NCBI GenBank assembly: GCA_018815245.1
Contig: JAHIXK010000005.1
Location: 1 to 64,000 of the forward strand
Length of the DNA stretch: 64,000 bases
DNA from: Gammaproteobacteria bacterium
GTDB lineage: Bacteria > Pseudomonadota > Gammaproteobacteria > Burkholderiales > Burkholderiaceae_B
Direction: 5' to 3'
Every line of letters begins with the position of its first letter. Position 1 is the first letter of the stretch. Below, one piece after another: positions 1,508 through 15,405 of this stretch. The notes beneath the pieces were generated by a model. The model worked only from the letters and a program-made list of their open reading frames with translations. It made no database searches and was not told where the DNA came from. A program made the position numbers and the translations under genes.

Positions 1508-1894
1508 ATGACTGAGTTGGTTGTTAAACGCGGACGATCCCGACGCACGCACAGTGAGCAGTTCAAACAAGAGGCTGTTGATCAGTGCACCAGGCCAGGC
1601 ATGTCACTGGCCAATGTGGCGAGGCAGCATGAGTTACATCCCAGTTTGCTGGCACGTTGGGTCAAAGAGCGAGCCGAGCCAGCGAGAATGACCGTGTCAT
1701 CGCAGTCTTCATTGGCGCCCCAGTTTGTTCCCCTGCGTGTCGAGTCAACACAGTGTGCCGAACTGCCGAGATCAACAACGTTGTCGAGAAAGATTGAAGT
1801 CAACATCGATCGCGGCGAATTACGAATTGCATTCAAAGTCGATCCATCGCAAATGGTTGAACTGGGCCAGGTACTGCGCGAGGTGCTGCGTTGA
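1508..1894 (+). CDS. tnpA: IS66 accessory protein TnpA (Orf1)
   Basis: This 128-residue protein is the first gene of the IS66 element. An N-terminal helix-turn-helix of the IS3/IS911 OrfA type spans about residues 10-55 (RRTHSEQFKQEAVDQC, then SLANVARQHELHPSLLARWV), followed by a poorly conserved C-terminal half. TnpA is needed for transposition of IS66-type elements, probably by binding the ends. The start is set by GGTGGAG seven bases upstream. Its TGA overlaps the TTG start of tnpB (TTGA), so the two are translationally coupled. Confidence 0.9.
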   Translation: MTELVVKRGRSRRTHSEQFKQEAVDQCTRPGMSLANVARQHELHPSLLARWVKERAEPARMTVSSQSSLAPQFVPLRVESTQCAELPRSTTLSRKIEVNIDRGELRIAFKVDPSQMVELGQVLREVLR

Positions 1895-2229
1895 TCCGTG
1901 TGGACGCAATCTGGATGAGCACCGCACCATGCGATATGCGTTCTGGCATGGACACTTTGATGAACCAAATTATTGCTGTGTTTGGTGCAGCCCAAGCTCA
2001 CAATGCCTATTTGTTTGCAAACCGCAGTGCCAATCGAATGAAGGTGGTTGTTCATGATGGCTTTGGCGTTTGGTTGTGCAGCCGAAGGCTGCACAAGGGT
2101 AGTTTTAATTGGGGCAAATCGATTGAATCAGGTGCGTCGGTCACACTGTCCACCGAACAATTCAACGCCTTGATTGTGGGGCTTCCCTGGCAACGTCTCG
2201 GCGAATATTCCAGCATCAAATATCTCTGA
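1891..2229 (+). CDS. tnpB: IS66 accessory protein TnpB (Orf2)
   Basis: This 112-residue protein belongs to the IS66 Orf2-like family. The family hallmarks are a basic segment near the start (here diverged to S-T-A-P-C-D-M-R-S-G-M-D-T-L), then VFGAAQAHNAYLFANRSANRMKV-like strands, a W-L-C-x-R-x-L-x-x-G-S-F pair and an L-x-x-x-Q-F-N-A-L-I-x-G-L-P-W C-terminal block. It is required in trans or cis with TnpC for transposition. It starts with TTG inside the tnpA stop and ends 59 bases before the ATG of tnpC. Confidence 0.9.
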   Translation: MIRVDAIWMSTAPCDMRSGMDTLMNQIIAVFGAAQAHNAYLFANRSANRMKVVVHDGFGVWLCSRRLHKGSFNWGKSIESGASVTLSTEQFNALIVGLPWQRLGEYSSIKYL

Positions 2230-2288
2230 ATTTCAATTGGCAAGATTGCCAATAGTTGGCGTGGATGGTGTGTGGCAATATCGGTTTC

Positions 2289-3950
2289 ATGACGCCAAGC
2301 CCCACACCAGAACAGATTGCCAAGATGGACGCAGACCAACTGCGTGCATTGCTGCTGGGGCAGATTCAAATCAATACCCAGTTGCAGCAAACGGTTCAAT
2401 CCAGCAACGCTGTAATACAGGCTAATGAAGCTGCACTTAAGGCCAAAGAAGAGCTGATTAAAGAGCAAGCGATCACCATCAAATACCAAGAGACCGTCCT
2501 CTCCAAAGTGACGCTGGAGTTGGCGCTGCACAAGCGGCTGCGATTCAGTAAAAAAGCTGAATCACTGAGCATTGAGCAACGTCACCTGTTTGATGAAACG
2601 ATGGACGGCGATGTTGCCCAGATTGAGCAGGAAGAACTGGACAAGCTGCCCGAACAGGATAAGGTCGTGGTTACCCGCAGCCTGCAGCCCAAACGCAAAC
2701 CGCTGCCGCCTGAACTGCCCCGCACCGAGACTCGCCATGAACCGGACAGTACCCTGTGCAAATGTGGCTGCCAGTTAAAACGCATTGGCGAGGATGTCGC
2801 CGAGAAACTGGACTATCAGCCTGGCACCTTTAGCGTAGAACGCCACATCCGTGGCAAGTGGGTGTGCGACGAATGCGAGACTCTGATTCAAGCGCCAGTG
2901 CCTGCACATGTGATCGACAAGGGCATGGCCACCACCAACCTGTTGGCCCAAGTGCTGGTGAATAAATTTGCTGATCACCTGCCGCTGTATCGCCAAGAGC
3001 AGATGTTTGACCGCACGGGCTACAAATTATCTGCCAGCACCATGGGCTCATGGGTGGGCCAATGTGGCGCAGCCTTGCAGCCTTTGGTGGATGCACTTCG
3101 AAATGAGATTCTCAAGCAAGGAGTGCTGCATGCTGATGAGACACCGATCACCATGTTGTGCGCCAAGCAAGCCATCAAGACAGGTTCAGCCAGCAAGAAG
3201 GCCTATCTGTGGGCCTATGCCACCACCCAGCATGCCGATATCAAAGCTGTTGTGTTTGACTTCGCTGAAGGTAGAAGCGGTCAACACGCCAAAGCATTTC
3301 TGGAAGGCTGGGGTGGCACACTGATCTGTGACGATTATCAAGGCTACAAAGCCCTGATCAAAGATAACCAGATTACCGAAGCGGCTTGCATGGCCCACGC
3401 ACGGCGCAAGTTCTTCGAGCTCTTTGCTGCCAACAAGAGCCACATTGCCCAAGCTGCACTGGAACAATTCAATGCCATCTACGCCGTTGAGGCCCAGTTA
3501 CAAGACATGCCGCCTGATGAACGACAACACCGACGGCAGGCTGAAATAAAACCGCTGATGGACAAACTTCGACAATGGTTGCTCGACCACAAGATCAAGG
3601 TGCCCGACGGGTCGGGCACGATGAAAGCAATTGATTACAGTTTGAAACGCTGGGATGCACTCACCACATTCCTGGATGATTCACACACGCCCATTGACAA
3701 CAACTGGGTGGAGAACCAGATTCGCCCCATCGCAGTGGGTCGCAAGAACTGGTTGTTTGCCGGAAGCCTGCGCTCGGGCCAACGCAACGCAGCCATCATG
3801 AGCCTGGTTCAATCGGCTAGGCTCAATGGACTGAACCCGCTGGTGTATCTCAAGGACGTGATGGATCGACTGCCCACGCAGCCGTACAGCAGGATCAACG
3901 AGTTGCTGCCGCACAACTGGAAACCTGCGTCGGCATCAATCGAAAGTTAA
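2289..3950 (+). CDS. tnpC: IS66-family transposase TnpC (DDE)
   Basis: This is the catalytic transposase. The N-terminal coiled coil (about 10-75) is followed by a zinc-finger-like CKCGCQL / CDECET pair (zf-IS66), then the DDE_Tnp_IS66 domain. Catalytic-site candidates are the D of VLHADETPI, the D of LICDDYQGYKAL and the E of DNNWVENQIRPIAVGRKNW. A C-terminal IS66_C block (LVQSARLNGLNPLVYLKDVM) closes it. I chose ATG 2289 (MTPSPTPEQIA); an in-frame TTG at 2256 would add 11 residues. Its stop overlaps by four bases the stop of the convergent passenger gene. A decayed copy of its C-terminal block is found at 20831-20890. Confidence 0.92.
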   Translation: MTPSPTPEQIAKMDADQLRALLLGQIQINTQLQQTVQSSNAVIQANEAALKAKEELIKEQAITIKYQETVLSKVTLELALHKRLRFSKKAESLSIEQRHLFDETMDGDVAQIEQEELDKLPEQDKVVVTRSLQPKRKPLPPELPRTETRHEPDSTLCKCGCQLKRIGEDVAEKLDYQPGTFSVERHIRGKWVCDECETLIQAPVPAHVIDKGMATTNLLAQVLVNKFADHLPLYRQEQMFDRTGYKLSASTMGSWVGQCGAALQPLVDALRNEILKQGVLHADETPITMLCAKQAIKTGSASKKAYLWAYATTQHADIKAVVFDFAEGRSGQHAKAFLEGWGGTLICDDYQGYKALIKDNQITEAACMAHARRKFFELFAANKSHIAQAALEQFNAIYAVEAQLQDMPPDERQHRRQAEIKPLMDKLRQWLLDHKIKVPDGSGTMKAIDYSLKRWDALTTFLDDSHTPIDNNWVENQIRPIAVGRKNWLFAGSLRSGQRNAAIMSLVQSARLNGLNPLVYLKDVMDRLPTQPYSRINELLPHNWKPASASIES

Positions 3951-4474: not shown

Positions 4475-4548
4475 TGGATGGTGGGCCTGGACAGGAACAA
4501 ACATGCCGGCAGTTTAAGCAATGCGAAACGGAATGTCCAAATCCAAGT

Positions 4549-4573
4549 CAAGACGGGTTTGCTGGGGGCTTAC
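4549..4573 (-). repeat. IS66 right terminal inverted repeat
   Basis: This is the mirror copy of 1426-1450 (23 of 25 bases), ending GCTGGGGGCTTAC at 4573. The second copy of the GAAGATAC duplication follows at 4574-4581. Confidence 0.9.
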
Positions 4574-4581
4574 GAAGATAC

Positions 4582-4861
4582 GAGGAATTCCGCCAACACT
4601 GGGCCAGGAAAATGTTTTCCCAGTGGGCATGCATCGACAGTATTCATGTGGATTGTTTTGCTATACAGCCCTTTGCCCTGGCTGACCAATCGCCGGAGTC
4701 GCATGTGTATATTGCTGTTCTCGGCAGGGCTGCTAGCAGGTGGAGTTCAAGTCATAAAGGGGGCTCATTTCTTAAGCCATATACTTGCAACCGCATGGAA
4801 TTGTTGGGGAGTCACCCTGATCTGCAGAGAGGTCTATTCCTCAAGGGTGGTTTTTACTTAA
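4582..4861 (+). pseudogene. PAP2-family phosphatase, 3' half
   Basis: This is the continuation of the split phosphatase, read in the frame DTRNSANTGPG. It holds PAP2 motif 2, G-K-C-F-P-S-G-H-A-S with the catalytic His, and motif 3, G-A-H-F-L-S-H-x-x-x-T-A-W, with two transmembrane segments between and after. Both catalytic motifs are therefore here, separated from the N-terminal membrane segments by 3.1 kb of IS66. Precise loss of the element plus one target duplication would restore the gene. It ends at 4861, eight bases before the convergent stop of the next gene. Confidence 0.85.
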
Positions 4862-4869
4862 TTAGGATT

Positions 4870-5793
4870 TTATTTGCGAATATAAGTGTCGTCCATTCTC
4901 AGACAAACTTGTTTTCGACTTTCCAAAACCTGATAGTGGAACTCGATTTCCATATTAAATCTTCGTTCCCATGGCATGTATTTGGCCTGATGATCGAGAT
5001 TCACGAAGTCACTTGGATTAATGTGAAAAGTCTCTTCGTGTGGTTTTCGCGGCACTTGTAGACCGGGCCCAGTACGAGTTGTTTCCATCCGCTCATCTGA
5101 TAAATCGTCAGGGTCAACATCTTCGTTAAATTTGATATCTAGTGGCTGTTCCTGTTCTTTGGATTGATAATCTGAGGATTCACTACGCAATGCCCTGATT
5201 GTTTTTTGACTTATATCATAACTAGTGATTCGGCCTTTAAATTTATAAATGCGAGTCGTATCCTGGAGTCCGCTCACTTGTTCTGCGAGGTGTATTGTAA
5301 GGTCGGTGTTTGGGCCCAAGCCAGAAAACTTAGTCAGCTTGATTTGGTTGTGTTCGACAAGACGTTCAACGACAAATTCGTGAACCTGTTGGGTGATTAT
5401 TTCCTTGGCTAAATGATCAAGTTTAGAGTTGTCGTCCTTACCTATACGGTGAATGCTATTGAGCTTCGGTTCGAACACGACACCTTGTAGGCTTGATACG
5501 ATATCTACGATGTGTTCATCAATCCAATCCAGCCGTTCGAAAATCGCTTCCTCATTTTCCTTTGTCGATGAGATGTGAAAGACAAGTTGCCAATGGCGGA
5601 GGTCACTTTCTGAGTCGCTGAGCAAGTTGCCGACTTCAATTGATCTATCAATTTGATCTCTGTACGTCGCGGCAATTCTGTGGAAAAGTAGTGCCTTCAT
5701 TGTCTTGAACAATTTGGTGCTTTCAGACGCCTGCCCCTCCGTCAGCGATTGAGGATTTTTCACCCTAAGTTTGTGAACGACATAGAAAGTCAT
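4870..5793 (-). CDS. Unknown 307-residue protein, partner of the giant recombinase
   Basis: The ATG follows the stop of the giant gene with no gap (TAA-ATG), and the ribosome binding site GGAGG lies in the last codons of that gene, so translation is coupled. The protein is hydrophilic and mostly helical-looking. It has an N-terminal MTFYVVHKLRVKN strand, a central segment dense in charged residues and an acidic linker near residues 215-240 (KFNEDVDPDDLSDERME). I recognise no domain or catalytic motif. By position it could be an accessory protein for recombination, like the small third gene of Tn554-type modules, or an effector of the cluster. Both ideas are inference only. Confidence 0.75.
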   Translation of the reverse strand: MTFYVVHKLRVKNPQSLTEGQASESTKLFKTMKALLFHRIAATYRDQIDRSIEVGNLLSDSESDLRHWQLVFHISSTKENEEAIFERLDWIDEHIVDIVSSLQGVVFEPKLNSIHRIGKDDNSKLDHLAKEIITQQVHEFVVERLVEHNQIKLTKFSGLGPNTDLTIHLAEQVSGLQDTTRIYKFKGRITSYDISQKTIRALRSESSDYQSKEQEQPLDIKFNEDVDPDDLSDERMETTRTGPGLQVPRKPHEETFHINPSDFVNLDHQAKYMPWERRFNMEIEFHYQVLESRKQVCLRMDDTYIRK

Positions 5794-8700
5794 TTAGTAG
5801 CCTCCTGCCAACAGATGTACGATCAATCCAATCCAGAAAAACTCAGTATTCGAAAAAGGAACGTCTTTCTTTTGACGCTTGACGCCAATGACCCACACTG
5901 TCTCTAAGTCAATATTGAACTTGACTGTTTGACGAACTGGGCCAACTGGTAACCTGAATCGAGTGGTAAGTCCAAGATCTGTCAAAACGTTCCGAATATT
6001 GCATTTTTGACTGTGAGAATTTGACCAAAAGAATAGATCTTTGGAGTCGAATCCAAGGAATTGAAGTAGGTCTAAGATGTGAATGAGATTCACAAGATCT
6101 TTTTCTTTCATCGACTCGCGGATCACATAATGAGCATCCTCTGTGAAGTTACCGAGTGGGTCAAAGTTGGAGTTGAGCTCAAATGGAATTTGTTTAAGGG
6201 CCAATATGTCTGATGTCTTTGCAGGCGTCGCCTGAACTCGGTGGATCAAGTCTGCAGTATCTCCATGATCGGGTAATTGTTTCTCAAGGCGTTCGTAGAA
6301 GGCTCGGCTCAGAAAAATACTGTTCGGTTTTGCGTGAGCGAAGCGGGCAGGACGTAGGCTAGGCGGAAATGATCTAAAGATATTTTCAAGAGGATAGAGC
6401 CGGCTAGCGATTTTCTGATTGGCAGTTGAATAAAGATTTATTGAGTCGCTAGATTGGTTAAGGTAATCAAGTGATCCTAGGATGTAGTCTTTGACGTTAA
6501 AGGTACGCAGCTTTATTGGTTCATCGAGCTGAGGAGCTGGACATTTAAGGCCGTATCTTGAAGTCATTGAGAAGGCGAAACTTTCGCTTTGAACTTCAAT
6601 GTTTCTGAGCGCGATTTCACAAAATTGACTATTGTAAAAGGAGTCGATAACCTCAAACCCGCGATGTGAATAGGTTTCTAGTAGCGTGATTGTTCCCGCA
6701 TGCCCGAGAATTCTGCTGGCGACAAATAGTGTTTTGCGATTTACGCTATCGGGTGTTGTATGAATTAATTGTTCGCCATTCAACGGTTTATCAGGATTAC
6801 AGCAAATTGCACTTTCAAAAAGTCCAAATGTAAGTTCGTCAGCAAAGGTATGTCGAAGGGTGTGAATACTCCCTCTGAAAGTAATATTTCGAATGATTTG
6901 GTTTAGATCCAAACTAATCTCGCGCGCTGAGGACTGAAATAAATCGCCAAGGTAACTTGCTTTCGTTGTTATCGCTCGGTGCTTTATTCTTTGCAGGATT
7001 CCTTTCTCCTCACTTGTAATTCTAGTTTGAGACAACACATAGCGATTTGAAGCAGGAAATTTAGGTCTAAAAACAGAATCGCCCATCACCCTGAGCAGCG
7101 GAGTAGTATCTAGAAGCTGCAGATTGACGGGCTTTAGAAAGAGAGACTCAGTTTTCCTTAGACCAAAACGACGAAGAAGAACAAAAATTGCTTGGAGTGT
7201 TTCAGGTTGGGTTTCTTGAATTTTTTTAAAGATCAGATTTAGCTCTTTTTGAGAAAAGAGATGCGTGGCTGGATTGTAAACCGTACCTAAGTTGTCGAAC
7301 TTCACGGACATCAAAGGATTCAGTTCTGCTAGTTTGGAGAAAAAATCTCTAATTTGACGCAGGTCGTCATGAGCGGATTGCAGGATCTGTTGTCTGTCCA
7401 GAAGATAGCCGTTAACGGTTTCAATTGCCTCATCGAGTTGTTCTTCATCGATTTCGTGCTCGAGGTTGGTCTCTTTAAAGAGATTTCCAATTCTTCCGTA
7501 ATAATTGAGCTTGGTGTTTTTTGCCAAACTTTTTCGTCCAGAGGGCTTTCTACTCTCGATATCCTTGGCATAGCTTAAAAGTGCCGATTTACACAAAGAA
7601 GGTCTTGTTGCGACTTCTTTACTTAGTCTAAGTATCGCGCCAAGGGCGTCATCCATGATCGCTGCAATATGGCTTGCGACAGATTTACACACTAGCCCCT
7701 GTTCATGGAAGTCAGTGGAATTGTCCGGGGTAAAGCTCTCCTCGATGGCTTGGTCATTGCTGCCCCCGGAAAAATTTTCCTTAATTTCGAGTTCTGTGCC
7801 GGCGACAAATGAGCTTGTAGCCGTCGCTTGGGAAGGAGGAGGGGCTTTGTTACCGGTATCGAGATATGCGATCGTATCGGTTGTCACAACTTCATGCGAG
7901 AGATACTTGGTTGTGAGCGCTAGTCGAGCGTTACTTGCCACGTGATCTGTGTCAGGATCAGTGAGTTGTTGAAAGCTTAGATAATTTGAGCTGCGATGCT
8001 TGGTGTCGCCTGAGGCAATCGCGGCCAAACAACCGGGTAATTCGTATAGTTGATAGGATTGCTCAATTTCAGCAAAATAATAAAGCAGGTCTTTTTTGGT
8101 GTTAAGCGATGATCCACTGACTCCGAGGCGATTTATTTTAGCCTGCAGGTCACGCCCTAGTTTTTCTAAATTATTGCTGCTCTGGCGAAAGCTTAGTTGA
8201 TTGACCAGCCGTTCATAATAGTGAATGGACAGGCGATGAAGCTCGTGCCGTCTGACCGAAGCGAGCGGATGGGGCTGCGTATCGACAAAATGAATATCGA
8301 TAAATGTTTTATCGGATATTGTTCCTAGCAGGTAATTTCCTTTTAAAACCTGCTGAATTGCGACTTTGCAAGTAATGCCATTTAGCTTGATTAGAGAGAG
8401 TGCGAATAGAAATTCAAGATTGACCTTTTGTTTTGCCTGTATGTTGGATTGAAGGATCTCCATGACGCCAGGGTGAGACGCTCGATATTCCGAATATTTT
8501 CGACAAAAGTCGATCGGTACTCTCTCGTTGACGGTACGGCCAACATTCGAGAAGGATTTCATGTCCAGGCCTGGTGCCATCTTTCGAAGAAACCGGGTTA
8601 ACTTGTAAAAATAAATGTCAAAGTGAATGCGGTTGCTCAGATCCAGTCGGGCTTGTGTGAGCGCTTTATCAATTCGATCTTGTGTTTTCTCCTCAGCACG

Positions 8701-11229
8701 CAAGCCTTCAATGATCGATAGCGCATCTTGGTAGGCCCTTTCTGCAATTGCCTTATGTAATGATTTATGTTCTGTCCTTCGCAATTGCAAGCCAAAGCGT
8801 TTGGGTATTGACTGCCCTCGCACATCAACGTCTTTGTTACTGAAATCAAAATCAATTGAATCGCCAATATTTAGGAATTCTAGGATCTGATCTGCGAAGT
8901 CGCGTACTTGTTGGTGATCCTTCTTCATTGTTCTGAGGCTTGATGCGCCGTAAACCGGGATCTTGTCGTTTTCGTGGCCTAAAAGCCCATCCACAATATC
9001 TCTATCGGTGATTTTGCAGTGGTTGCTGACAAAATGGCGCAAGAAATTGGCCTGTAAGGTATCGAAACTCCCAAGGAGCGTTACATCCGCAGGAATACCT
9101 TCGATGCCGCCTTCAGTCAGAAAAAAGAAAAATGGGACACCTTGATTGTTTGAATGGGATGGTGCGACAAGTAGTGATTCAATTTGTCTCGAAAGATTTG
9201 GTGTGTTGGTTCGAAGTCGGTTGGCGAGGAGTTTAAGACCATTTCGATAGGTGATGCCGATTTCATCAGAGAGTGATTCACAAAGTGGTACAACACGTCT
9301 TGGCTCACGTAGCAAAACATCTTTGTCATCTACGATGATGAGATCAAAAGCGTCCGTGAACAGATCGAGATCGCAATATGCATCTTTAACTGGGCGCCCG
9401 CCCGTTGTTAGATAGATCCGGAAGATCAAGTAGGTAACCCAAGCATTCCAAGACGTGCGAAGTGATTTGCTATTGATGGTATGCTCTAATTGGCTAACCA
9501 AGATAGCTACATCGGCCCTAAATTTCTCAAGATTAAAAGCGTAGGGTGAGCCAGCGACGTTTTTCTCTCCGTGGATTACTGAATAGTAAGCACATTTCGA
9601 AGGAAGCTCTGATCGAGCGTTTTTTTGTATCAAAATTGCTGCTGATTCTGGATGCCCTTGTGCAAGGAGCATCAGTCGTCGGCTGCTTTGCAGCCAGGCA
9701 TTCGATTCAAACCCGAAGTGAACTTTTACCCGATCAATTTTCTCAGGATCGAACTTTTTCTCAATCGCCAGATCGTAGAGGCTCTCATGGGTTTGAATAT
9801 TCCATTGCTCCTTTAGAAAGTTTTGGAGTTTGGTGGGTAGAGATCTTCGTTCGATCTTATCGGACGGCAAAAGTGTTGAATGAAGAAAAGTCTTTTTGCC
9901 CATATGTTGTAGTGATGGACGCAATCTCCAGATCGCCGATAGATCGTCCATGAGTCCAAACTCCGTTTCTGGCAGATGATGGACTTTAAGTGCTAGTGCA
10001 CCCTCAAGGTTGGCACCGATCTGAAATCCGATCCAAATTAACAGGTCAGCTAAAGTGTCATTGGTGATTTCGTTGGTGCCTCCGGTCTCCAGGGTTGCGT
10101 AGGCACCGATATGTTCAGCCCGAAGCGGCAGGTGTGGGTTGGTCGGGAAATAGGTCGAAAGGTTGAAATCAAGCAGTACCTGCCCAATGGCTTTTGCCTC
10201 TAGCTGAGGGGTGTCTTGATTGTAGTTTCGTCGTCCCTTGGAATGGCCCTCAATATTTGAACCAGATTGATCGTCCGGTTGCGCATTATTGAAGTTCTGT
10301 TTAAAAAGCGCTTTTAACTTTCGGACTTCTTTGCCATCGTCATCGTTTATCCTGTACCTATTCAAATTCAGGGACTGGATCCCTGAAGGAGAGTCTGGAC
10401 CAAAGTAAAGAACAGGTTTTGCAGACGGAGAAAAGAAATTCAAGTAAATCTTCTGAATATTTCTCTGATATTTCGTTTCGTTATCGTTTGGAAGAACAGT
10501 TGTTGATCTTGATAGGCGAAGTTCAGTTTCCAACTTTTCTTTGAATGCTTTTTCACTTTTCGATGGCTTGTCGAAGCGTTGGAATAGATGGATTAGAAAA
10601 TCACGGTTGTGATTTTCGTTTACTGGCGCAAACGTTTGCCGAAGCTCATTGAGAAATTTAAGGTGGGGCATGCGAAATATCACTCTCCCATGGCTAAAGC
10701 AATAGCCTTCAAACAACTGCTTTAATATTAGCAAAGCGGTTTGCGTATAGCCGAAATTGGGATGCTGCTGCCAACTTTGAAAAAGCAGCTCAACAATTGG
10801 GTATTCACCGCGTGAAATTGGCTGAGCTCTGAAAATTGGCCGTTTCGTGTTGATCGTTTGAAATTGCTGATCACATGCCTCGAAAGCATCATAGCGTCGG
10901 ATTATATGTACCAGATGGTGGAGGTTTCTGTAAAAATCGTCCGTGTGCGACCATGCTTGTAAAGTTTCCCTGTATCGCGACGTGCATAGCCAGCCAAGGC
11001 AGTGGTGGAGAAAACCCCCTCCCGCAAATGGGATAGTAATTTCCGATTCAACCTTATGATTACGTAGCCCGTTATGAAGACGTAGATCTTCCCCGATTGC
11101 CCAACTCCGTCTTAAATTGGTTACAAAGTGAGCGGGAAGGTCTATTTTATCGGTTACCGCTGCAAGCGCATCCTCAAACTGGCCACAGTCTTGGATTAGA
11201 TTTGGATTCCAGTTGGGGATATTTTTCAT
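5794..11229 (-). CDS. Giant protein with two tyrosine-recombinase catalytic domains
   Basis: This is a single uninterrupted frame of 1811 codons. Domain A (about 560-790) shows TTGGRPVKDAYCDLD with the box I Arg near 612, NFLRHF (Arg 731, with Asn where His is usual), LLGHEND (His 752) and Tyr 760 in P-V-Y-G, a spacing seen in large integrases of genomic islands. Domain B (about 1210-1540) has a SAM-like helical core-binding region, then RRFGLRKTE (Arg 1358), H-T-L-R-H (1456-1460), ILGHAGT (His 1510) and LLETYSH (Tyr 1520), so a full R-HxxR-H-Y set. The other parts (1-550, 800-1200, 1540-1811) match nothing I know. Typical integrases are 300-500 residues. It lies in a minus-strand cluster after DUF3800, near a tRNA-like end, so an integrase role is likely. 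The 142-bp spacer upstream (11230-11371) holds only small overlapping frames on both strands that I do not trust. Confidence 0.88.
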   Translation of the reverse strand: MKNIPNWNPNLIQDCGQFEDALAAVTDKIDLPAHFVTNLRRSWAIGEDLRLHNGLRNHKVESEITIPFAGGGFLHHCLGWLCTSRYRETLQAWSHTDDFYRNLHHLVHIIRRYDAFEACDQQFQTINTKRPIFRAQPISRGEYPIVELLFQSWQQHPNFGYTQTALLILKQLFEGYCFSHGRVIFRMPHLKFLNELRQTFAPVNENHNRDFLIHLFQRFDKPSKSEKAFKEKLETELRLSRSTTVLPNDNETKYQRNIQKIYLNFFSPSAKPVLYFGPDSPSGIQSLNLNRYRINDDDGKEVRKLKALFKQNFNNAQPDDQSGSNIEGHSKGRRNYNQDTPQLEAKAIGQVLLDFNLSTYFPTNPHLPLRAEHIGAYATLETGGTNEITNDTLADLLIWIGFQIGANLEGALALKVHHLPETEFGLMDDLSAIWRLRPSLQHMGKKTFLHSTLLPSDKIERRSLPTKLQNFLKEQWNIQTHESLYDLAIEKKFDPEKIDRVKVHFGFESNAWLQSSRRLMLLAQGHPESAAILIQKNARSELPSKCAYYSVIHGEKNVAGSPYAFNLEKFRADVAILVSQLEHTINSKSLRTSWNAWVTYLIFRIYLTTGGRPVKDAYCDLDLFTDAFDLIIVDDKDVLLREPRRVVPLCESLSDEIGITYRNGLKLLANRLRTNTPNLSRQIESLLVAPSHSNNQGVPFFFFLTEGGIEGIPADVTLLGSFDTLQANFLRHFVSNHCKITDRDIVDGLLGHENDKIPVYGASSLRTMKKDHQQVRDFADQILEFLNIGDSIDFDFSNKDVDVRGQSIPKRFGLQLRRTEHKSLHKAIAERAYQDALSIIEGLRAEEKTQDRIDKALTQARLDLSNRIHFDIYFYKLTRFLRKMAPGLDMKSFSNVGRTVNERVPIDFCRKYSEYRASHPGVMEILQSNIQAKQKVNLEFLFALSLIKLNGITCKVAIQQVLKGNYLLGTISDKTFIDIHFVDTQPHPLASVRRHELHRLSIHYYERLVNQLSFRQSSNNLEKLGRDLQAKINRLGVSGSSLNTKKDLLYYFAEIEQSYQLYELPGCLAAIASGDTKHRSSNYLSFQQLTDPDTDHVASNARLALTTKYLSHEVVTTDTIAYLDTGNKAPPPSQATATSSFVAGTELEIKENFSGGSNDQAIEESFTPDNSTDFHEQGLVCKSVASHIAAIMDDALGAILRLSKEVATRPSLCKSALLSYAKDIESRKPSGRKSLAKNTKLNYYGRIGNLFKETNLEHEIDEEQLDEAIETVNGYLLDRQQILQSAHDDLRQIRDFFSKLAELNPLMSVKFDNLGTVYNPATHLFSQKELNLIFKKIQETQPETLQAIFVLLRRFGLRKTESLFLKPVNLQLLDTTPLLRVMGDSVFRPKFPASNRYVLSQTRITSEEKGILQRIKHRAITTKASYLGDLFQSSAREISLDLNQIIRNITFRGSIHTLRHTFADELTFGLFESAICCNPDKPLNGEQLIHTTPDSVNRKTLFVASRILGHAGTITLLETYSHRGFEVIDSFYNSQFCEIALRNIEVQSESFAFSMTSRYGLKCPAPQLDEPIKLRTFNVKDYILGSLDYLNQSSDSINLYSTANQKIASRLYPLENIFRSFPPSLRPARFAHAKPNSIFLSRAFYERLEKQLPDHGDTADLIHRVQATPAKTSDILALKQIPFELNSNFDPLGNFTEDAHYVIRESMKEKDLVNLIHILDLLQFLGFDSKDLFFWSNSHSQKCNIRNVLTDLGLTTRFRLPVGPVRQTVKFNIDLETVWVIGVKRQKKDVPFSNTEFFWIGLIVHLLAGGY

Positions 11230-11371
11230 ATGGAGGTGTCCCAGCTTGACAACTTCGTTGCAAATATCGTTACGATTGCACCGAGAAGACTTGATTTGAA
11301 CGAGCTATATCGCTTACACTTCGAACAAGTGGATTGGGGGCTCCCGGTCGGCGCTATAGCCTCGGTGGGTT

Positions 11372-12175
11372 TCATCGGGGCTTTTCGCTTTTTTGGGGTG
11401 GATAAACTTTTAAGCCCCAATTTTCATATCCTTGCCCGACGTTTTTTCGACCTCCAGAGCAATAAAACTTCTCCTTCAAGATTTCAAAAGCAGTGTTTGG
11501 TTGATCGGGGCGCAGAATGTTAAGGCCAATCGGCCTAGCGACGAGGTCAGCCAGTTGCAAGCCAGGGGAATCCACCTTTTTATCCGCAAAAATAATCTCA
11601 AAAGGGAAGTTGATTCCAGCGCGATTTGCGCCATCGGTCATCCGACGAAACTCAAGCTCTAACTCGTCGTCTTCTTTTTTACCTCGACATTCAAAGACTA
11701 CGTGGGTGAGTTGCTTTTGTTGACTCTTCTCCTGCAGGAACTCATAGAGTGTCTCCAAGCAAAAGCCTAGTGCCAAATGATAGGGGTTCTCGTTTTGGTC
11801 GGGCGAGCCTTTGAGTTTTGATTTGTCGATGACACAACTAGCCAGAATAAAGTTGTGGGTCTTGATTAGTTGACTCAGTTCGTCCAGGAATTTGGTTTTT
11901 TGCAGCTTGCTTTTGAAGGTGAATGCGCCTTTTTCTTTTCTGATGTCGTGTTCATGCAGTACAACCAAGTCATGGCCGAAGTGCTGGAACTTGAATTGGT
12001 GCAGTGCGGAAACAACGCGATTGGCGTAATGCCTCTTGTGAAATATGCAAAAGGCAAGGACAAAAATTGGATAGTTTGGATCCAAATTTTGCATGCCATG
12101 GTCACCACTTTCGTCGACATAGACGATGTAGTCACTGAATATGCTGGGTGTGGTTTGGTCGGTTTTGCTGCTCAT
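11372..12175 (-). CDS. DUF3800 family protein
   Basis: This 267-residue protein carries the DUF3800 signature. Near the start is the strand-acid motif Y-I-V-Y-V-D-E-S-G-D-H-G (residues about 17-28). Later come FVLAFCIF, a central HEHDIRK segment and a C-terminal LQLADLVARPIGL block ending near a Tyr/Trp-rich tail. The family has an RNase H-like fold with conserved acidic residues and is common on phages, plasmids and islands, but its activity is unknown. It is the first gene of the minus-strand cluster with the giant recombinase, 142 bp upstream of it, and its start faces the tRNA-like end at 12456. It may take part in processing nucleic acid during recombination or defence; this is inference. 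Confidence 0.85.
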   Translation of the reverse strand: MSSKTDQTTPSIFSDYIVYVDESGDHGMQNLDPNYPIFVLAFCIFHKRHYANRVVSALHQFKFQHFGHDLVVLHEHDIRKEKGAFTFKSKLQKTKFLDELSQLIKTHNFILASCVIDKSKLKGSPDQNENPYHLALGFCLETLYEFLQEKSQQKQLTHVVFECRGKKEDDELELEFRRMTDGANRAGINFPFEIIFADKKVDSPGLQLADLVARPIGLNILRPDQPNTAFEILKEKFYCSGGRKNVGQGYENWGLKVYPPQKSEKPR

Positions 12176-12248
12176 TGTGGTCTCGCAGTGACTTTGAAAA
12201 GTCTGTGACGAACAAAATTCAGTCGCCTACGGATGTGCCGCAAAGTGG

Positions 12249-12293
12249 GCCGAGACTCCAAAAACCACAAAAATAGCGAAATAGTGCCGAGAC
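12249..12293 (+). repeat. Pair of GCCGAGAC direct repeats near the island end
   Basis: GCCGAGAC occurs at 12249-12256 and 12286-12293, 37 bases apart start to start, upstream of DUF3800 and about 140-200 bp from the tRNA-like end. Spaced short repeats near an attachment site can be arm-binding sites of a tyrosine recombinase or operator half-sites. Eight bases is short enough to be chance. Confidence 0.3.
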
Positions 12294-12431
12294 GTTAAAT
12301 GGTGTTATCTCACAGTTTGTGTGTGAAAGCAACAGAGTATAAAAATTCAGAGGGTCTTGAAAGCACCTATTAACGTTGTTTCTGACGAAAATAAGTTAAA
12401 TAAGATACATCTTTTCCCCTTGGCCTCCGAA

Positions 12432-12456
12432 GGTTCGATCCCCGCCAGCCGCACCA
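12432..12456 (+). other. tRNA/tmRNA 3'-end-like sequence, probable attachment site
   Basis: The sequence has a T-loop GGTTCGATCC, then CCCGC, a seven-base acceptor-like strand CAGCCGC and ACCA ending at 12456. This is the layout of a tRNA or tmRNA 3' end. The matching 5' half is not there: the bases before the T-loop (CGAAG) do not pair with CCCGC, and no D-arm or anticodon arm precedes it. A lone 3' end from T-loop to CCA is what remains at the far side of an island integrated into a tRNA-type gene. The intact gene would then lie left of the window. The stretch 12176-12547 otherwise holds no gene I can support. Confidence 0.5.
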
Positions 12457-12547
12457 TTACATACATCTGGTGATCCCAATCCCCGTTTTTTGACACTGCT
12501 CCCGCCACGGGCTTGAATGGCGAGTTGTTCACTTCCCTGCTTAGCCC

Positions 12548-12853
12548 ATGTTCAATTCCAGCTTCGGCAAACTTTCATTGACCCAGCCTGCGTTTTACAT
12601 ACCCCTGCCCCAGCATTCGCTGGTCGACGTCATTGCCCACAGCTACGGTATTTTGCCTGGGCAAGAACCGGTGTTTTCGGTGTTGCTGGATTACCTGCTT
12701 GCACTGAACCCCACCGTGAAAAACCCACGCATTGCCCTGGGCAGCCATGCTCCGCGCACGCTCGACTTTATTTCACACGACCCACAAACCATTCTGTGCA
12801 TGAACCCCGAGGTGGTGAAGGCCCGCATACGGCGGGTGGTGGGGTGCTGTTGA
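12548..12853 (+). CDS. Hypothetical 101-residue protein
   Basis: A GC-rich frame of 101 codons starts MFNSSFGKLSLTQPAFYIPL and ends VVKARIRRVVGCC. Composition resembles the backbone rather than the AT-rich DNA to its left, and the middle (SLVDVIAHSYGILPGQEPV, ALGSHAPRTLDFISHDPQT) looks like real protein. No family is recognised. The stop comes just after a basic segment and a low-complexity GGTGG run, so it may be a truncated version of a longer protein. An overlapping frame at 12517-12942 looks like a shadow. Confidence 0.4.
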   Translation: MFNSSFGKLSLTQPAFYIPLPQHSLVDVIAHSYGILPGQEPVFSVLLDYLLALNPTVKNPRIALGSHAPRTLDFISHDPQTILCMNPEVVKARIRRVVGCC

Positions 12854-12938
12854 CTGGGTTTGGCGCAATGGGGGCGTGTGGGAAGATTGGTTGGGGAGTT
12901 GACTTGGTAAGTCCTTCTGGAATTGGGCAACTGTGTAA

Positions 12939-13322
12939 ATGAGTGATTTATTTATTCACATCCTTTTTGCAAGCATCTTGTTGATCGCAGTTTTGCTCCC
13001 CGCAAGCTGGGTGCTTCTTACTTGGATTACACCTAGATCGGTTATCGATCGCTATGTGAGTCCCCCATATTTCAGCGAGTTTGAAGCAATTGCATATCAA
13101 TATTTTCCGACTAGTTTGATTCGAACCATGCTTTTCAGCATGGCGATCTCCGTTCCAGTTTGTAGGCGAATCAGGAAGTTTGGCGACATGCACAAGCACG
13201 TGCCATTGTGGTTCAACCTTGCATGCAGGTTTTATGTGTACGGAATTCTTGGCTATTCGTTCCTATGCATTTTCGTGATAATCGGTTTGGTGGTTCTGGC
13301 TGAATTTGGTGTTAATGGGTAG
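12939..13322 (+). CDS. Hypothetical integral membrane protein, 127 residues
   Basis: The protein has a strongly hydrophobic N-terminal segment (about 5-30, IHILFASILLIAVLLPASWV), a second weaker one around 61-72 (LIRTMLFSMAIS), and two close C-terminal segments (about 95-122, YVYGILGYSFLCIFVIIGLVV). This gives three or four membrane passes with a short basic loop (RRIRKFGDMHKH). No family is recognised. It lies just upstream of another small membrane protein gene with 9 bp between, so the two may be co-transcribed. Base composition is more AT-rich than the backbone. Confidence 0.55.
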   Translation: MSDLFIHILFASILLIAVLLPASWVLLTWITPRSVIDRYVSPPYFSEFEAIAYQYFPTSLIRTMLFSMAISVPVCRRIRKFGDMHKHVPLWFNLACRFYVYGILGYSFLCIFVIIGLVVLAEFGVNG

Positions 13323-13331
13323 GCGTTTGCA

Positions 13332-13544
13332 ATGAAAACTACTTCCTCGCGCGCACTGTTGTTCGCGAGCGTTTTCGTCTACTTCATCTGTCTTACTCAA
13401 CCAGGGTTCTACGCTGGTAGCGAAGAGCCTGTATTTGGTCCAGGGATAGGCCTCTTGTTGATCGGGTGGTTTGCTATTGGAAGCGGCGCGGGTTTTTCGT
13501 GGTTAGCCAATCCAGTGTTGTTTCTAGTTTGGAACTTTGCATGA
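13332..13544 (+). CDS. Small membrane protein, probably frameshifted near its C-terminus
   Basis: The frame encodes 70 residues with an N-terminal hydrophobic segment (ALLFASVFVYFICLTQ), then GFYAGSEEPVFGPGIGLLLIGWFAI and FSWLANPVLFLVWNF. This arrangement of helices with a W-x-A-N-P-x-L motif is typical of a small family of bacterial membrane proteins that normally go on with one more helix. That helix is present in another frame just downstream: 13546-13638 reads GYGRGYWLWLVSAVLALLSA to a TAA. A one-base indel near 13540 therefore probably truncates the protein. A natural separate short gene is the alternative. Confidence 0.5.
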   Translation: MKTTSSRALLFASVFVYFICLTQPGFYAGSEEPVFGPGIGLLLIGWFAIGSGAGFSWLANPVLFLVWNFA

Positions 13545-14880: not shown

Positions 14881-15405
14881 ATGGCAAGCAAGTTTCTTGG
14901 CGTTGATGGCAAGTACCATCCCGCCGGGTCATTTCTCGGCACTGACGGAAAGTACCATCCGGGGGGCTACTTCGTAGGTTCCGACGGGAAGTACCATCCG
15001 CCCGGTTCGTTCCTCGGGGCAGACGGGAAGTACCATCGTGCTGGGGAGTTCGTTGGTTCGGATGGGCGGTATCACCCGAAAGGCCAATTTCCTGGGAGCG
15101 ACGGTAAGTACCATCCGGCGGGTTCCTTCCCTGGGATGGACGGCAAGTACCACCCGCCGGGAGCATTTCCTGGAACCGATGGGAAATATCACCCGCAGGG
15201 CAGCTTCCTCGGGACTGATGGTCGTTACCATGCCTCGGGATCCTTCGTAGGTACGGACGGTCGCTACCACTTGCCCGGCGCGTTTCTCGGGACAGACGGA
15301 AAGTATCACCCGCAACATTCCTTTTTAGGTGTTCACGGTCAATACGTTGAACCCGAGGGTGCCGGTGAGAGGGAACGCGCGAATCAAAACGGCCTTGAGT
15401 GCTGA
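14881..15405 (+). CDS. Cassette protein made of 11 tandem 13-residue repeats (F-x-G-x-D-G-K-Y-H-P)
   Basis: This 174-residue protein is almost entirely repeat. After MASK come 11 units of the form F-[LVP]-G-x-D-G-[KR]-Y-H-x-x-G-x (residues 5-147), then a diverged twelfth unit (FLGVHGQYVEPEG) and a short polar tail. There is no signal peptide or membrane segment. Asp-Gly, Tyr and His recur at fixed 13-residue spacing, which suggests a repeat fold such as a beta solenoid or a multivalent metal- or ligand-binding surface. I do not recognise the family. A GGGGAGG ribosome binding site precedes the ATG by six bases. It is the sole gene of a cassette between attC1 and attC2. Confidence 0.8.
   Translation: MASKFLGVDGKYHPAGSFLGTDGKYHPGGYFVGSDGKYHPPGSFLGADGKYHRAGEFVGSDGRYHPKGQFPGSDGKYHPAGSFPGMDGKYHPPGAFPGTDGKYHPQGSFLGTDGRYHASGSFVGTDGRYHLPGAFLGTDGKYHPQHSFLGVHGQYVEPEGAGERERANQNGLEC
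14893..15321 (+). repeat. 39-bp coding tandem repeat, 11 units
   Basis: Eleven back-to-back 39-bp units encode the 13-residue motif. The strings GACGG(A/G/C)AAGTA(C/T)CA recur at this period. Units vary mainly at third codon positions and at the variable residues, which points to selection on the protein rather than recent DNA-level duplication. Confidence 0.9.

Follow-up and report, generated by a model that had tools for sequence, protein, structure and literature searches.

Among described integrative elements, those nearest in gene content to the locus analyzed here are the strand-biased circularizing integrative elements (SEs) and the GInts. According to the text available for the SE paper, an SE carries IntA, Tfp, IntB and Srap, encoded in a single operon at its left end, and the authors report SEs in Gammaproteobacteria only (PMC10214605). 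The set consists of two catalytic tyrosine recombinases (YRs), Tfp, which has a YR fold without the catalytic motif, and a small protein, and is reported to be needed for recombination (PMC10214605). GInts carry ginABCD, of which ginABC are consecutive, and in the text available their three YR-type proteins and one small protein are reported to be needed for recombination; the first Arg is described as absent from GinC (PMC5385486). The GInts described are flanked by 10-11 nt imperfect repeats, and the main text of that paper does not contain the word tRNA (PMC5385486).

The locus compared with these systems lies in a 64,000-nt stretch of DNA (the window) and contains a giant gene whose product carries two YR domains, A and B; the pair is called AB below. 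Taken with a conventional integrase and a small gene, AB would form a set of the kind described for SEs and GInts, in another arrangement, directed to tRNA genes where ends were identified and, in some lineages, fused; by description, AB itself would compare with IntB/Tfp of SEs and GinB/GinC of GInts. The likeness to SEs, as far as the available description goes, consists of two catalytic YRs, a YR-fold protein that lacks the catalytic motif, and one additional protein, located at an element end; in role, domain A would resemble Tfp as described. In contrast to the operon intA-tfp-intB-srap, however, the conventional integrase here lies at the opposite end of the island, outside the AB operon, so that the gene layout is not that of an SE. 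Furthermore, the targets found here are tRNA genes, which the main text of the SE paper does not mention (PMC10214605), and A, here fused to B, keeps R, K, R and H. Like the GInts as described, the locus has the form of an island, a variable cargo and three proteins of YR type besides a small one. It differs from them in that A keeps the first Arg (43/43), which GinC reportedly lacks, and has no conserved Tyr, and in having two YR-type genes or a fusion, with the integrase apart or convergent in 17/20 cases; three consecutive YR-type genes plus ginD were not found, and the layout is therefore not that of a GInt. The IntBPP-1 subgroup with PF12167, in the text available for PMC8138268, resembles the conventional integrase of one Limnobacter genome (G005; PF12167 plus PF00589) but not the giant protein, which has no PF12167 match and in which A and B are divergent and of far greater size. 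Gamma-Mobile-Trio, mentioned in PMC12715929, and RIT elements and Tn554, both mentioned in PMC10214605, are similar in being mobile elements, and RIT and Tn554 also in having several recombinases. In the literature searched, which covered few subscription journals, no description of such fused or inactive recombinases was found.

The giant gene and its neighbours in Limnobacter

The giant gene occupies 5794..11229 on the minus strand, starts with ATG and encodes 1811 aa, the coordinates and length agreeing with an earlier note made from the window sequence. A tblastn search of 149 related genomes detected full-length orthologues in five other Limnobacter genomes, with identities of 92, 89, 89, 89 and 61%. 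Matches were obtained in 7/149 genomes, including the window's own, the weaker ones being G092 and a second locus in G005. A scan of named contigs returned the same five genomes and the second locus, all of them Limnobacter: L. alexandrii LZ-4, L. sp. 130, the metagenome-assembled genome (MAG) CACIAM 66H1, L. sp. MED105 and L. humi. In comparison with one orthologue the dN/dS ratio of the giant gene was 0.21, and with a pair of identical orthologues it was 0.19; with the same orthologues the values were 0.21 and 0.19 for the A core and 0.13 and 0.17 for the B core. Because full-length copies exist in five genomes and dN/dS is 0.19-0.21, the ORF is a real gene and no chance frame.

A 267-aa DUF3800 gene (11372..12175, minus strand; PF12686, E 1.4e-20) lies upstream of the giant gene, and a 307-aa gene with no assigned function (4870..5793, minus strand) lies immediately 3' of it. 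Both neighbours are present in six Limnobacter copies, and the order DUF3800, giant, 307 aa was constant in 6/6. A Pfam scan of the window giant gave no family match, and none to PF12167 either; P0001 alone as a query matched nothing in plasmids, phages or viral contigs, and an Rfam search over 4500-13500 with E up to 0.1 gave no match. None of the proteins scanned matched a Gmt-named NCBIfam model; to our knowledge, NCBIfam holds Gmt models.

The second locus of G005 (L010 5827-12051 on G005 C38) encodes another fused giant (P0004, 1707 aa) with 20% identity and a 359-aa downstream gene. No empty site was found for the P0004 locus; in 4/4 genomes compared, the adjoining gene cluster starts just upstream of a reductase, and the DNA before this cluster differs among the four.

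Elsewhere in the window, an IS66-family element (1508-3950; PF03050, E 3.9e-101) lies apparently within a PAP2-like phosphatase gene, with a PF01569 match on one part (4478-4861) and none on the other (962-1429). An ORF of 174 aa on the plus strand (14881-15405) contains repeats of DGKYHPxGxFxG, and its match to DUF5633 was weak and below the cut-off.

Fused and split AB pairs and their catalytic residues

To the window protein were added A cores from profile searches of 399 genomes at the order level, 369 at the class level and 398 at the phylum level, and of a plasmid collection; the phylum-level loci are among the matches listed. In all, 43 A cores were compared, and adjacency was counted by hand: in 13 cases A and B lie in a single ORF, in 27 the gene immediately downstream encodes B, and three A cores lie at contig ends. 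Split pairs have A before B, frequently overlapping, and fused chains are about 1680-1940 residues long. In at least 2/13 fused cases (L093, L105) the gene is broken before the A core and not between A and B, and one B gene (L099) has no adjacent A. A short gene frequently precedes A; the 16 compared encode 158-240 aa and fall into several unlinked sequence clusters. Annotated plasmid relatives are named "tyrosine-type recombinase/integrase", "site-specific integrase" or "integrase".

Judged by these sequence comparisons, the giant is shown to be a natural fusion of two YRs that many relatives encode as adjacent genes, and the AB family is a broad one, existing sometimes as one protein and sometimes as two. 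This agrees with the earlier idea of a single-chain version of a multi-recombinase set, and the homologue search also bore out a conserved full-length fusion located at an island end. In the best tree of 41 B cores, the fused and split states need three changes, and a single origin of the fusion was set aside on that account, although one origin may still apply; 19/38 inner branches are open.

The residue counts exclude the near-identical Acinetobacter plasmids L161-L165, the partial proteins L208 and L214 and the integrases; L102 is included in them and absent from the A4 and A5 alignments. Matches not taken up were G551, G757, G533, G193, G326, G1023, G1062, G1080 and G1130 C11, and G193 and G326, whose frames span 196 and 306 aa, do not figure among the AB genomes. 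All residues named in the earlier note were found at their numbers in the translation and the alignments.

The domain B core (residues 1229-1543; 6601..7545, minus strand) contains the conserved set R1358, K1390, H1456, R1459, H1510 and Y1520, present in 41, 41, 36, 41, 40 and 41 of 41 cores, respectively. A profile of 19 B cores matched solved chains of a XerC-like protein (7.8e-12) and XerA (3.2e-11), and also Int and Cre, and Pfam detected PF00589 above the cut-off in the B region of two distant full-length relatives, P0004 and P0005. By profile, domain B is a member of the tyrosine recombinase superfamily with the R-K-H-R-H-Y set, and the near invariance of this set over 41 cores argues that B is retained as an enzyme.

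The domain A core (residues 564-795; 8845..9540, minus strand) keeps R612 (43/43), K636 (42/43), R645 (43/43), N728xxR731 (N728 38/42, R731 43/43) and H752 (42/42). A profile of 21 A cores matched XerD (5dcf, 1.4e-10; 1a0p, 1.7e-10), a XerC-like protein (4a8e, 5.3e-8) and XerA (4.8e-5). In hhalign, the A family aligned to PF12167-type integrases with E 2.4e-5 and with the TGxR, RH and GH motifs in register, compared with 0.32 for reversed A. The four nearest A members alone gave a weak alignment to the integrases (0.008), a seven-row A1 alignment against one integrase was uninformative, and A against B directly gave a probability of 2% (E 0.022). Pfam did not detect domain A in the window giant or in the relatives scanned, 2/21 A cores weakly matched an integrase family in PHROGs, and the A1 profile had no match in viral contigs or among solved structures. 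On the strength of the profiles, domain A is a homologue of the YR catalytic domain, and the matches of the two regions to XerD, XerC-like, XerA, Int and Cre proteins support the earlier identification of both as YR domains.

Tyr760 of domain A is not conserved. Tyr occupies this column in 3/42 A cores, namely the window protein and the split A proteins L096 and L146, and among the 13 fused proteins it is found there only in the window. Within the Limnobacter alignment Tyr760 is present in 5/5 rows; P0004 has His and P0005 has Trp. The column aligned by hhalign with the integrase Tyr is 763, where 10/42 A cores have Tyr, all of them split (0/13 fused); this Tyr might serve as the nucleophile in those ten proteins. 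Motif II of domain A starts with Asn in 38/42 cores and not with His, and the H-to-Y spacing is 8 in A against 10 in B. As read from these alignments, A is kept as a domain with a basic pocket (Arg/Lys/Arg/His) and without a conserved nucleophilic Tyr. Catalysis by A in Limnobacter is unlikely, although conceivable because all five Limnobacter rows have Tyr760. The earlier note had described two complete active sites and had itself named variation of Tyr760 among homologues as telling against them; with Tyr in 3/42, this part of its interpretation falls, while two YR domains in one chain, a conserved fusion and a position at an island end stand.

tRNA islands and the companion integrase

The distal att site (12420..12456, plus strand) is a 37-bp 3' segment of tRNA-Arg(CCG), so that the island end was correctly placed at 12456. 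In this segment TTGGCCTCCGAA runs directly into GGTTCGATCCCCGCCAGCCGCACCA, whereas the intact tRNA has 13 bp between the two. The non-coding stretch between the DUF3800 gene and this site (12176..12419) contains a block that is conserved also in the 61% copy, and no inverted repeat was detected in it at the settings used. From about 12335 to 12419, two quite different versions exist (the window and G004 versus G005, G011 and G012) in modules that are otherwise 92-99% identical. In the window genome the intact tRNA lies on another contig, 4.6 kb from that contig's end.

Complete islands, extending from the intact tRNA-Arg(CCG) to its 3' fragment, were found in G005, G011 and G014 (39.1, 39.1 and 40.5 kb), and in all three the giant gene adjoins the distal att fragment. 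The islands of G005 and G011, which are two species, are 99.95% identical over 39,287 bp and 100% identical in the AB module, whereas identity falls to 83% in the DNA that precedes the tRNA, and the right flanks differ from the first bases past CCA. Such an island between such left flanks indicates, at the sequence level, that the unit moved recently between species. G004 carries the module at 99.4% identity with a third kind of right flank. The cargo varies; at the DNA level, G014 matches G005 only over 2.5 kb on the left and at the right end.

The 13 bp after TTGGCCTCCGAA are missing from the att segments of G000, G004, G005, G011 and G012, and 14 bp are missing in L. humi (G014); the att segment of G013 has no gap. 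L. humi has CTGGCC in its own tRNA and TTGGCC in the att segment, and this part of the segment is therefore likely to be element-derived. A crossover in the anticodon loop of the Limnobacter islands was considered and dropped, since the near-identical modules of G004, G005 and G011 have the same gap and different right flanks, which a crossover on the right-hand side of the gap explains more simply. In G013 the tRNA segment at an island end is complete (L056 1-260, G013 C194); the contig stops about 0.2 kb into the island, and the giant gene was not found in that genome.

In other lineages, G342 has a 39-kb island at tRNA-Pro with both ends and the att segment 195 bp before A. The 37-kb island of G718, at tRNA-Arg and likewise with both ends, has AB and the att segment 8 kb apart. 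In G1130 the small gene that precedes A has a tRNA-Val segment 176 bp upstream of it. For the island of G469 the distal att site was not found, and in G092 it was found only as a remnant. In the DNA stretches taken, tRNA genes were present near AB at 3/43 loci (one with an att copy), at 0/15 loci in another set and in 4/20 further flanks.

All three complete Limnobacter islands have a conventional integrase on the tRNA side, with PF12167 matches at those places; the G005 protein matches PF12167 and PF00589. G005, G011 and G014 therefore carry tRNA-borne integrative islands with a PF12167 integrase. The earlier suggestion that the giant is the integrase of the island was right as to position, but its role as the integrase is doubtful since these islands encode the PF12167 and PF00589 integrase as well. 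The window's own assembly has no PF12167 match. The distance from integrase to tRNA is 6.8 kb in G005 and G011, 3.6 kb in G014 and 18 kb in G718. A further feature common to G005, G011 and G014 is a pair of genes before the integrase (g5 5717-6704); one, starting MCGRYV, is like SOS-response-associated peptidases and the other is like a Cro-type regulator by sequence likeness.

At the order level, PF12167 was detected in 50/399 genomes, comprising 11/13 AB genomes and 39/386 others (Fisher p 2.7e-9), the two draws of 399 genomes being taken as the same from their counts and handles. Where AB and an integrase lie on one contig, they are convergent in 17/20 cases, tandem in two (G932, G1010) and divergent in one (G853); against a rough expectation of 25%, this hand count gives a binomial p of 3e-8. 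The distances range from under 0.1 kb to about 70 kb, up to which pairs were taken, and the long ones may not represent one element. G011 was not counted apart from G005, and the integrases of the widest set were found with a profile of seven such integrases and not with PF12167 itself. In G342 the integrase counted was the one next to the tRNA, the nearest integrase being divergent and outside the att sites. G012 was left out of the count: its integrase and AB lie near opposite contig ends and would belong to one island only if the contig were circular, and no overlap of the ends was found. As a whole, AB is often at the opposite island end from the ordinary integrase and, since the two are convergent, both would flank attP in a circular form.

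Possible roles of the AB pair

Tyrosine recombinases act as tetramers of which only half the subunits cut at a time, and it is a long-standing question what determines the inactive half. In pairing an active recombinase with one that looks inactive, this conserved family may be a natural system in which the asymmetry is hard-wired. From the gene arrangement and the analogy with known sets, we propose, with about as much confidence as doubt, that AB is an accessory recombination module, in which a catalytic YR and a Tyr-less YR work with the conventional integrase on the att sites. The island is predicted to circularize, and it follows from the map that attP would then be bordered by the integrase side and by the DUF3800-AB operon. 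AB would be a second recombinase acting with the conventional integrase on the island att sites: B would provide an additional strand-exchange enzyme, A could be a DNA-binding, non-cutting subunit that shapes the synapse, and fusion would keep A and B at 1:1 within one complex. More tentatively, and on balance doubtfully, the parts around attP in tRNA islands may form a four-part machine, with the integrase on one side and the small protein, the Tyr-less YR, still with its phosphate-binding pocket, and the catalytic YR on the other; if so, the chain fused in some lineages would be a natural covalent heterodimer that could fix which synaptic subunits cut. AB would also make these islands recognizable by a second marker in addition to the integrase, both in Limnobacter and elsewhere in the phylum.

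A role of AB in island movement is likely, judging from sequence; against it speak the occurrence of AB on plasmids, the few tRNAs near AB, and PF12167 without AB. An alternative is that AB is a passenger system with its own site beside its operon, resolving multimers or exchanging cargo for the replicon, in excised islands as in plasmids, while the conventional integrase alone moves the island. Plasmids of Acinetobacter, Vibrio and Sphingobium carry AB, and the parts of them that were read contain no such integrase. On the Acinetobacter plasmids a 1681-aa fused relative forms a two-gene block of about 6 kb (L148 1549-7740; L161-L165), the surrounding DNA of which differs across the six stretches read. 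No other integrase is annotated in these stretches, and in 3/6 of them (L148, L164, L165) a replication initiation gene lies about 1.6-5 kb upstream. The homologous block has a sharp edge about 150 bp before the operon, and an imperfect inverted repeat in this upstream region could represent AB's own site; no such repeat was found in front of the window, L. humi or G342 copies. P0011 as a query had no match in phages. Considering that AB occurs without the integrase on plasmids and PF12167 without AB in 39/386 genomes, neither strictly needs the other. Against a passenger system, AB co-occurs with PF12167-type integrases and faces them convergently, and we consider this explanation rather unlikely.

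The proposed accessory role must also be weighed against a directionality factor or regulator that binds beside attP and biases excision versus integration, with cutting by B dispensable. The proximity of the operon's first gene to the att segment (176-244 bp in Limnobacter, G342 and G1130) would suit such a factor, but the catalytic Tyr of B, kept in 41/41 cores with the other residues nearly so, would not be needed by a pure DNA-binding protein. Moreover, the recombination directionality factors known to us are small proteins, unlike AB, and this alternative appears improbable.

A defence or other non-recombination system, in which the YR domains serve as DNA binders, is very unlikely. DUF3800 is linked with defence loci, so the Limnobacter neighbour and the island setting would fit, yet PADLOC identified 0/6 proteins (the giant, its two neighbours, P0004 and one split pair), and the three upstream genes scanned from other lineages (P0009, L106, L202) have no DUF3800, since they match no Pfam family.

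The least credible alternative is that in Limnobacter domain A is catalytic as well as B, with Tyr760 as the nucleophile of A, which would agree with Tyr760 in all five Limnobacter rows, the conserved R, K, R and H and the A core dN/dS of about 0.2, but is opposed by Tyr in 3/42 at column 760, the H-to-Y distance (8 in A, 10 in B), the Asn that replaces the motif II His, and a fused set of 13 in which Tyr occurs at 760 only in the window and at 763 in none.
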